This document shows, one piece after another, positions 23,008 through 25,805 of a stretch of DNA of 35,277 nucleotides (position 1 is the first letter of the stretch; every line of letters starts with the position of its first letter). The notes beneath the pieces were generated by a model. It was given only the letters and a program-made list of their open reading frames with translations. It made no database searches and was not told the DNA's origin. Source of the stretch: an uncultured Planktomarina sp. (GTDB taxonomy: Bacteria > Pseudomonadota > Alphaproteobacteria > Rhodobacterales > Rhodobacteraceae); contig CAJWTH010000009.1 of assembly GCA_913047725.1 (NCBI GenBank), forward strand, positions 1 through 35,277. The letters are read 5' to 3'. The position numbers and the translations under genes were made by a program.

Positions 23008-23172
23008 TCCAAAATACCATTTTACTAAATCAATAGAAAAATATCTTTAATATGAGTATAACTCTCGTCATGGGCAACTTTAGTAAAACGCTCTTCATTT
23101 TGTCCAGTAATAAGGGGCAGTCACGGCCCAAAAAGTGAAATTGTGTTACATTCTTTCAAAGGAAACTTATCC

Positions 23173-23694
23173 ATGTTTAGACTGACCCTTGTATCATTAT
23201 TGTTTTTTGTCACAGCTTGTTCCCAAGGGCCTTCAATAAACGATACAAATCTATCAAAATTAGAGCTTAATATTGAAGATTTTTTTGATGGAAAAACAAC
23301 TGCTTATGGACAATTTCAAGATAGGTTTGGAACAATTAGAAGTAGATTTAAAGTAGATATTGAGGGAACTTGGGATGGAGAAGTTTTAACGCTTGTTGAG
23401 AATTTCAATTATGCAGATCAAAGCACTGAAATCCGCATATGGAAACTTAAGAAAACAGGTGAGAATTTATGGATTGGAACAGCGCCAGGGGTTGTTGGAG
23501 ACGCCATAGGAGAGGAAAAAGGCGATGCCTTTAATTTTCGATATAGGCTCCTAGTGCCATTTGGAAAGACGACATTACTCGTAACTTTTGATGATTGGAT
23601 GTGGCTATTAGATGAGAAACGTTTGTTCAATCGAGCTTATTTATCAAAATATGGAGTTAACATTGGAGAAGTTTTAATTACTTTTGAAAAGTAA
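23173..23694 (+). CDS. DUF3833 family lipoprotein
   Basis: Lipobox-like LLFFVTACSQ; IEDFFDGKTTAYGQFQDRFGTIRSRFKVDIEGTWDGEVLTLVENFNYADQSTEIRIWKLKKTGENLWIGTAPGVVGDAIGEEKGDAFNFRYRL. ATG 23173 has an upstream AAGGA. Confidence 0.88.
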   Translation: MFRLTLVSLLFFVTACSQGPSINDTNLSKLELNIEDFFDGKTTAYGQFQDRFGTIRSRFKVDIEGTWDGEVLTLVENFNYADQSTEIRIWKLKKTGENLWIGTAPGVVGDAIGEEKGDAFNFRYRLLVPFGKTTLLVTFDDWMWLLDEKRLFNRAYLSKYGVNIGEVLITFEK

Positions 23695-23860: not shown

Positions 23861-24517
23861 ATGAGAGAACCGCATATGCAAATTTCAGAACTTCAACTTC
23901 TTAAAGACCTTAAAATAAAACATGTAATGGTCGATACTGAAGAAGGCTCCTCAATCGACAGAAAATCTACTATCACTGAAGCGTTATCATTGATGGCTAA
24001 AGATCCTAATAGTGCCGTGGTAATTACGGTTGAAAATGGTGATATTGTGGGCATAGCTACTGAAAAAGATGTGATATTGGCTTTAGAAAAATTTGGTCCA
24101 AGTATTCTCGACCATGCAATAGAAACTATAATGACATCTAACCCTGTTAGATCTGATATGGAAACGACTTGTGAAACGGCCCTACAGCAAATGATAGACG
24201 GGAATTTTCGAAACATACCCGTTTTTGAGAATGAAAAATTTAAAGGTATTGTCCAAGCTCTAGAAATTGCCGAAGGTAAAACTGTCGAAATTCTTGAGGA
24301 AAATCGTAAGCTGAAAGAACTTATAGTACAGCATCTCCCAAGAAATTTTTATTTTCAATCAACCGATGATGTGAACAAAGTCCACGATAGCATGGTGGAA
24401 AACAATATGACCTGTGCTTTAATTCAAAACCCAGATCGGCCTGCTGATATAATTGATCTTAGTGACTTCCTGCACCTGATGGGTCAATCAGCTAATTCAG
24501 ACAATCCATCTAATTGA
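23861..24517 (+). CDS. CBS-domain-containing protein
   Basis: STITEALSLMAKDPNSAVVITVENGDIVGIATEKDVILALEKFG...IMTSNPVRSDMETTCETALQQMIDGNFRNIPVFENEKFKGIVQALEIAEG is a CBS pair. Confidence 0.92.
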   Translation: MREPHMQISELQLLKDLKIKHVMVDTEEGSSIDRKSTITEALSLMAKDPNSAVVITVENGDIVGIATEKDVILALEKFGPSILDHAIETIMTSNPVRSDMETTCETALQQMIDGNFRNIPVFENEKFKGIVQALEIAEGKTVEILEENRKLKELIVQHLPRNFYFQSTDDVNKVHDSMVENNMTCALIQNPDRPADIIDLSDFLHLMGQSANSDNPSN

Positions 24518-24531
24518 GGGATAATTAGAAA

Positions 24532-25020
24532 ATGGCAACAAGATTTATGCCTGAATGGGTTCTTGGATTTACCTGCGCCTACATATCTTTACGTTTTGTA
24601 AATGGCACTATTCCACTGCAGGCATTCGCTAATAAATATTCAAAGCCGTTATCAGAAAAATACGCTGATGCCTCCAGTAAAAAACTGATGGGTATTTCTC
24701 AGGATATGCTATATTTTCTGGCAACTTTTGAAAGTTCCAACCACATGGCGATCGTAGAATCTTATATGTTTAATAGTTTAAATTTTACCAAGAAGGGTAG
24801 AAAGCGGAAGATCAAAACTCTGTTTGGTTCTGCTTTAGATGCTCAAAAACAAGCTACGCCTCAAGAGGCTAGCATAAGGAGATTTAAGAATTTTGTTTTC
24901 CAACTTCGAGCTGACAGTAGATATAATGTTCCTGGAGGTTGGAACTTAAAAGAAGAGCAAGGAATTGATTGGCTTCTAAATATTTATGAGCAGAATGTAC
25001 GCACAATGGACGGTTTTTAG
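24532..25020 (+). CDS. Uncharacterised 162-aa protein, copy 1
   Basis: MATRFMPEWVLGFTCAYISLRFVNGTIPLQAFANKYSKPLSEKYADASSKKLMGISQDMLYFLATFESSNHM...; no family recognised. Supported as coding by the intact paralogue. Confidence 0.85.
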   Translation: MATRFMPEWVLGFTCAYISLRFVNGTIPLQAFANKYSKPLSEKYADASSKKLMGISQDMLYFLATFESSNHMAIVESYMFNSLNFTKKGRKRKIKTLFGSALDAQKQATPQEASIRRFKNFVFQLRADSRYNVPGGWNLKEEQGIDWLLNIYEQNVRTMDGF

Positions 25021-25050
25021 CCTTAAAAACTTAAAATAAATCTATTTTTT

Positions 25051-25259
25051 AATATGCCGTGGTAATTGAGGTCCAAAATGAAGGCGTTGTCGGCATAGCC
25101 ATGGGGAAACATATGATATTGGCTTTAGAGAAATTTGGTCCAAGTGTTCTCGAACATGCAAAAAAAACTATAATATTATCCGGCCCTGTTAGATCTGGTA
25201 TAGAAACGACTTGTGCTATAATTCAGACTCCAGATAGACCGGCCTTAACGGTTTCATAA
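25051..25259 (+). pseudogene. Degraded second copy of the CBS-domain gene (5' truncated, internal 243-bp deletion)
   Basis: Encodes VVIEVQNEGVVGIAMGKHMILALEKFGPSVLEHAKKTIILSGPVRSGIETTC/AIIQTPDRPA, aligned to 24013-24173 and 24414-24435 of the intact gene. Confidence 0.9.
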
Positions 25260-25316
25260 AACTAATGGGGCCACTTAGTAGTTAAACAAAGCTATCTAAT
25301 CGAAGGAAGCTTAAAA

Positions 25317-25805
25317 ATGGTCACAAGATTTATGCCAGATTGGGTTCTTGGATGTACCTGTGCCCACATAACTATACGCTTTGTAAATAGCACTATTCCA
25401 TTAGAGGCATTCGCTAACAAATATTCCAAATCGCTATCCGAAAAATACGTTGATGCCTCCAGTAAAAAACTGATGGGTATTTCTCAGGATATGCTATATT
25501 TTCTGGCAACTTTTGAAAGCTCCAACCATATGGGTGTCGTAGAATCTTATATGTTTAATAGCTTAAATTTCACCAAGAGGGGTAGAAAGCGGAAGATCAA
25601 AACTCTGTTTGGCTCTGCTTTAGATGCTAAAGAGCAGGCCACGACCCATCAGGCTAGCATAAGAAGATTTAAGAATTTTGTTTTCCAACTTCGAGCTAAT
25701 GATAAATATAATGCTCCCGAGGGTTGGAACTTAAGAGAAGAGCAAGGAATTGATTGGCTACTAGATATTTACGAACAAAACGTAATAGCAATGGACGGGC
25801 TTTAA
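25317..25805 (+). CDS. Uncharacterised 162-aa protein, copy 2 (paralogue of 24532-25020)
   Basis: MVTRFMPDWVLGCTCAHITIRFVNSTIPLEAFANKYSKSLSEKYVDASSKKLMGISQDMLYFLATFESSNHM...; same length, about 28 substitutions and no gaps relative to copy 1. Confidence 0.85.
   Translation: MVTRFMPDWVLGCTCAHITIRFVNSTIPLEAFANKYSKSLSEKYVDASSKKLMGISQDMLYFLATFESSNHMGVVESYMFNSLNFTKRGRKRKIKTLFGSALDAKEQATTHQASIRRFKNFVFQLRANDKYNAPEGWNLREEQGIDWLLDIYEQNVIAMDGL

Follow-up and report, generated by a model that had tools for sequence, protein, structure and literature searches.

FlaF and FlbT, small regulators of flagellin in Alphaproteobacteria, are encoded at flagellin loci. Helpers of a different kind are the flagellin export chaperone FliS (PF02561) and FliT, both of them helical bundles. 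Stand-alone CBS sensors, a further point of reference for the proteins considered here, include CBSX1/CBSX2, AMPK gamma and ATU1752 (3fhm). In Helicobacter, FliS has a partner, HP1076, and deletion of its gene was reported to leave motility without a phenotype (PMC7248283).

The locus lies in a window of 35,277 nucleotides from an uncultured Planktomarina (contig C9 of genome G000; G, C and L codes are the genome, contig and locus labels of this analysis). Its features are given in Table 1. An initial annotation had described a head-to-tail repeat of the 3′ part of a CBS-domain gene and a 162-aa gene, the two 162-aa frames being of equal length, gapless and about 83% identical, with 28 differences. 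Alignment confirms the description: the two copies align without gaps, differ at exactly 28 residues and are 83% identical in amino acids and 87% in nucleotides, a similarity far above chance (blastn E 1e-179). Copy 1 begins 14 nt after the stop codon of the CBS gene; copy 2 has an RBS-like purine-rich stretch of its own. Promoter-like sites were no more numerous in a promoter scan than in shuffled sequence. On the 5′ side of the CBS gene stands a DUF3833 gene (PF12915, E 1.8e-54; window positions 23143-23694), which keeps this position in two other Planktomarina genomes, G015 and G010.

Table 1. Features of the tandem locus (positions in the window).
Feature	Position	Strand	Supporting data
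CBS-domain gene, intact, 218 aa	23861..24517	+	Pfam CBS E 2.4e-17
162-aa gene copy 1, member of unnamed flagellar-locus family	24532..25020	+	pI 9.65
Decayed CBS remnant, not a working CBS gene	25055..25243	+	nucleotide alignment to intact CBS gene
162-aa gene copy 2, member of unnamed flagellar-locus family	25317..25805	+	pI 9.08

The remnant between the two 162-aa genes is clearly related to the intact CBS gene (blastn E 2e-42). Positions 25055-25215 correspond to CBS nucleotides 24013-24173 at 81% identity (codons about 52-105) and positions 25208-25243 to nucleotides 24409-24444 at 78% (codons about 183-195), with the sequence degenerate beyond; what has been lost is codons 1 to about 50 and about 106 to 183 of the CBS gene. 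These matches agree with the earlier observation that the second CBS copy had lost its 5′ end and middle. The putative nucleotide-binding motif, T67-x-x-D70 in the intact protein, reads M-x-x-H in the remnant (T67M, D70H). The same tandem arrangement is found in two more Planktomarina MAGs, G015 (JAFMEA010000011.1) and G010 (CAJJBD010000008.1). The junction of the internal CBS deletion is identical in all three genomes; the remnants decayed separately afterwards, and that of G010 has an in-frame stop. Since arrangement and junction are common to the three, the tandem duplication is older than these Planktomarina species and no artefact of assembly.

Purifying selection acts on copy 1 and copy 2 alike. 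By the Nei-Gojobori method dN/dS is 0.20 between copy 1 and copy 2 of the window, and between G000 and G010 it is 0.13 for copy-1 orthologues and 0.08 for copy-2 orthologues, with the intact CBS gene at 0.09. The proposal that selection acts on the 162-aa protein is thus borne out for both copies, and a neutral duplicate, with dN/dS near 1, is ruled out by the values for the 162-aa genes. Eleven residues separate copy 1 from copy 2 and are fixed in G000, G015 and G010. Within one genome, dS between the copies is 0.29-0.43, not above the between-species value (about 0.4-0.5); the copies of the window genome are most alike in their middle third, and stretches within the 3′ third of G010 copy 1 are like copy 2. 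From these patches of extra likeness, and from a within-genome dS no higher than that between species, we infer gene conversion between the copies.

Members of the 162-aa family gave no match above noise in Pfam, NCBIfam, PADLOC or PHROGs, and no related sequence was found in the PDB. An AlphaFold model of copy 1 built from 21 aligned sequences (pLDDT 93.5, pTM 0.90) is mostly helical with short strands. Foldseek returned nothing for this model at E<=0.001 from the PDB (best E 3.6, best probability 0.05) and no match among viral structures (best E 1.2): the predicted structure of copy 1 is a confident model with no counterpart among solved structures. The initial annotation had recognised no domain in this protein, and the HMM and structure searches likewise matched no described family or fold. 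A defence origin was rejected because PADLOC gave no match; a viral or phage origin was rejected in turn, the single-protein search having found no relative on viral contigs and the CBS protein having drawn only weak PHROG matches (E no better than 0.03).

To define the family, searches were made with profile A1 and then A2; f109, f9 and f104 are the labels given to genome families in this search. Of 385 genomes sampled from the class, 10 had a match, as did 26 of 61 in f109, 30 of 32 in f9, 13 of 397 in the family to which the window belongs and 2 of 27 in the order of G140; in the draw from the phylum, the window's own genome was the only one sampled with a profile match. The families f109 and f9 are probably SAR116-like and small-genome planktonic lineages. 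Across 76 unique members the most conserved residues are P7, W9, Y44, R92, F98, F118, R126, W137 and D160. The family is undescribed; its proteins, the 162-aa one included, have about 160 residues, are mostly helical and so far come only from Alphaproteobacteria.

The gene neighbours of the family are flagellar. In f109 its gene has fliD on one side and flagellin on the other, in f9 it is flanked by flagellin and flgL, and in f104 it is beside flagellin. Wherever the flanking gene could be classified the orientation was the same – flagellin always divergent (24/24), fliD (22/22) and flgL (9/9) always convergent – counts drawn from genomes that are related within a family and so are not independent events. 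In most Rhodobacteraceae genomes the gene is directly 3′ of fliS and co-directional with it; fliS-linked loci of Planktomarina include those of G012, G002, G004 and G015 (contig C10), with FliS confirmed by Pfam. Other members of Rhodobacteraceae outside Planktomarina are found in clusters with flhA, flgA, fliS or motAB. Adjacency to genes for filament substrates or their chaperone (flagellin, FliD, FlgL, fliS) holds for most loci outside the CBS-linked branch of Planktomarina; the window copies themselves have no such neighbour. The flagellar filament gene block is the common, and probably the ancestral, home of the family.

Members without a flagellar neighbour number 11 in f9, five in f109 and one in G018, in addition to the CBS-linked members of Planktomarina. 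Those of f9 are second copies, co-directional and placed between NDUS4-like and methyltransferase genes (L100-L103, L106-L108, L110, L111, L113, L114); the 11 loci form a separate clade (100/100) and represent a second departure from flagellar surroundings. The extra copies of f109 (L089, L091, L093, L094, L095) form one clade and stand near a winged-HTH or coiled-coil gene.

Two other small genes occur in these neighbourhoods. A FliT-like gene that Pfam does not recognise also occurs in some loci of the 162-family gene, so that the 162-aa protein is not a simple replacement for FliT. In several Rhodobacteraceae, fliS is followed by a gene of unknown family (about 110-135 aa) convergent to the 162-family gene (L161:1989-2351, minus strand; L022:7015-7392, minus strand; L179:7179, plus strand), whose product has a C-terminal motif like PRFGxAxNxxA.

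The CBS protein of the window matches PF00571 in three stretches (63.4 bits against a cut-off of 24): a CBS pair, a linker predicted to be helical and a third CBS stretch. The motif (T/S)-x-x-D is found only in the first CBS (T67..D70) and is intact in all five homologues aligned (alignment A3). The protein has profile matches to CBS chains in the PDB, among them 3fhm (E 3.5e-18) and AMPK gamma; an AlphaFold model (pLDDT 45) was too poor for use.

The pairing of this protein with the 162-aa family recurs. The window genome has a third family copy, on contig C149 (43% identity). Immediately before it stands an intact CBS gene with 51% identity to that of the window, and a beta-propeller-like ORF follows this pair (L020:2229-2966). 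A CBS gene is also directly 5′ of the family member at the corresponding locus of G016, in G009 and on a plasmid of Octadecabacter arcticus. In G009 a TGA interrupts the CBS gene (L023:6127-6786), and the downstream 162-aa homologue is still open. The Octadecabacter arcticus 238 plasmid (NC_020909.1) carries the order fliS–108 aa–CBS–162–motA–motB inside a large flagellar cluster; its CBS gene has the three-CBS layout of the window (22% identity over 171 aa) and its family member is 34% identical to copy 1. A CBS link limited to Planktomarina is thereby ruled out. In the tree the CBS-linked members of Planktomarina (window tandem, C149/G016, G009), together with the unlinked member of G018, form one branch (support 99/94) nested in a clade whose other proteins are linked to fliS or to filament genes. 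The Octadecabacter protein, when added, groups with a flagellar-cluster member that has no CBS gene (100/98), so the tree does not establish a common origin of the two CBS links, which may represent two recruitments. The initial annotation had suggested that CBS and 162-aa proteins make up a sensor/effector module: the pairing recurs, as that idea would have it, but CBS is not the usual partner, most members being at flagellar filament genes, and the tree places the CBS-linked proteins as a branch inside this flagellar-locus family.

Within Planktomarina, FlhA was found in 8 of 20 genomes. Copies linked to fliS occur in 5/8 genomes with FlhA and in 0/12 without it (Fisher p 0.004; one copy is a pseudogene), whereas CBS-linked copies occur in 2/8 and 3/12 (p 1.0), both p values being indicative only as the genomes are related and some are incomplete. 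Neither FlhA nor flagellin was detected in G000 or G010, MAGs that are 86% and 78% complete, for which reason an absence of flagella is not proved; G015, with dS to G000 of 0.01-0.07 at the tandem locus, has flagellar genes. Signs of flagellar decay in the genus include a stop-ridden 162-family gene (G001:C5:276743-277217) and an flhA that is split or stop-bearing (G002:C4:182799-184762, G004:C1:364100-366064); at L025:8030-9163, transposase-like ORFs adjoin a truncated FlbD-like gene. The branches also differ in charge. Median pI is 4.9 for filament-linked and 4.95 for fliS-linked members; at the tandem locus the copies have pI 8.9-9.7. The window copies are basic beside an acidic CBS partner (pI 4.65), a reversal relative to flagellar members. 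The initial annotation had supposed that both copies may work with the one intact CBS protein; opposite charges of this kind (about 4.7 against 9.1-9.7) would permit a charge-complementary contact, although this is only a hint.

How does the family compare with the described systems? Flagellar members resemble FliS and FliT in their position at fliS or in the filament block, in small size and in acidic pI. Yet no flagellar model matched family members in the Pfam and NCBIfam scans, the copy 1 model has no helical-bundle match by Foldseek in the PDB, where FliS and FliT structures are held, and the gene adjoins fliS instead of replacing it. HP1076, likewise a lineage-restricted small protein associated with FliS, offers an analogy for a co-chaperone, but belongs to a different phylum and matches the family in neither sequence nor fold. 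With FlaF and FlbT the family shares small size and a place at alphaproteobacterial flagellin loci; it has no Pfam match to either. The CBS protein of the window has Pfam CBS domains like those of stand-alone sensors, but differs from them in its three stretches, its predicted helical linker, its single intact (T/S)xxD motif and its gene partner. A search of open-access papers found nothing specific on a link between CBS proteins and flagella.

Tentatively, and at somewhat less than an even chance, we favor the view that these proteins are an undescribed family of filament-export adaptors, and that in the window pair an offshoot of it has become coupled to a CBS protein that senses nucleotides. 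Flagellar members would serve as small cytoplasmic adaptors or co-chaperones in the handling of flagellin and cap protein: their genes occupy sites typical of FliS/FliT-type helpers, and they share small size and acidity with type III export chaperones. No PDB chain, FliS included, matches the fold, so the case for a chaperone is built on position, size and charge. In one branch (in Planktomarina and, separately, in Octadecabacter) the 162 gene is the downstream partner of a CBS1-CBS2-helix-CBS3 protein, a putative nucleotide-sensing subunit, which would sense a nucleotide through its first CBS motif and would bind and gate the 162-aa protein. A tandem duplication of the CBS+162 unit took place in the common ancestor of three Planktomarina species; the second CBS gene was truncated and decayed, and both 162-aa copies were retained by purifying selection as slightly diverged paralogues. 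Reversed charge, together with CBS-linked copies in genomes without detected flagellar genes, suggests that the tandem-locus copies have probably been repurposed to act at least partly outside the flagellum.

The same gene order could be read as that of a protein regulating the filament genes, equivalent in function to FlbT/FlaF or FliW/CsrA and tuned by the CBS protein according to nucleotide level. Divergent orientation is often seen for regulator–target pairs, and the strict divergence from flagellin (24/24 loci) fits this reading about as well as it does an adaptor; the basic window copies (pI 9.1-9.7), moreover, could bind nucleic acid. That no library searched revealed a DNA- or RNA-binding domain, that filament-locus members are acidic (pI 4.9) and that the Rhodobacteraceae gene is co-directional with fliS make it unlikely, though a serious contender. 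We assign a similarly low probability to the idea that the CBS+162 module of the window works fully outside the flagellum in an unrelated nucleotide-sensing function, the flagellar link being one of ancestry only. The CBS-linked copies do not track FlhA, no flagellin or FlhA was found in G000 and G010, the charge of the window copies is reversed, and other branches (the NDUS4-linked copies of f9, the extra copies of f109) are also off flagellar loci; against this stand the Octadecabacter pair inside a flagellar cluster, the incompleteness of the MAGs and the flagellar genes of G015 (dS to G000 0.01-0.07 at the locus).

That the duplication was simply fixed by drift or dosage, its second copy having no special function, is very improbable. 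The dS between the copies does not exceed that between species, and the middle third, where the copies of the window genome are most alike, suggests conversion, as such an account would allow; both copies, however, have kept full length in three genomes while the neighboring CBS copy decayed, and eleven copy-specific residues are fixed. A bolder version of the adaptor view is itself rather doubtful: CBS+162 as a novel type of nucleotide-gated switch for export or expression of the flagellar filament, in which a CBS sensor of the cell's adenine-nucleotide state would bind a flagellar adaptor whose fold has no precedent, one that Planktomarina would have duplicated and charge-inverted for a second target.

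The frame in which the duplication was first seen has changed: what was duplicated is an offshoot, coupled to CBS, of a family from flagellar loci. What is new is a protein family at a well-studied machine; its biochemical role is what we infer. The analysis exposes, at the filament genes of marine Alphaproteobacteria (f109, f9 and Roseobacter relatives), a family with no model or known fold, and suggests that accounts of how these lineages handle flagellin and cap protein have lacked a piece. The branch with CBS partners points to a way in which a sensor of energy or nucleotides could be wired to this family, and is a clear example of a flagellar part duplicated and moved elsewhere.
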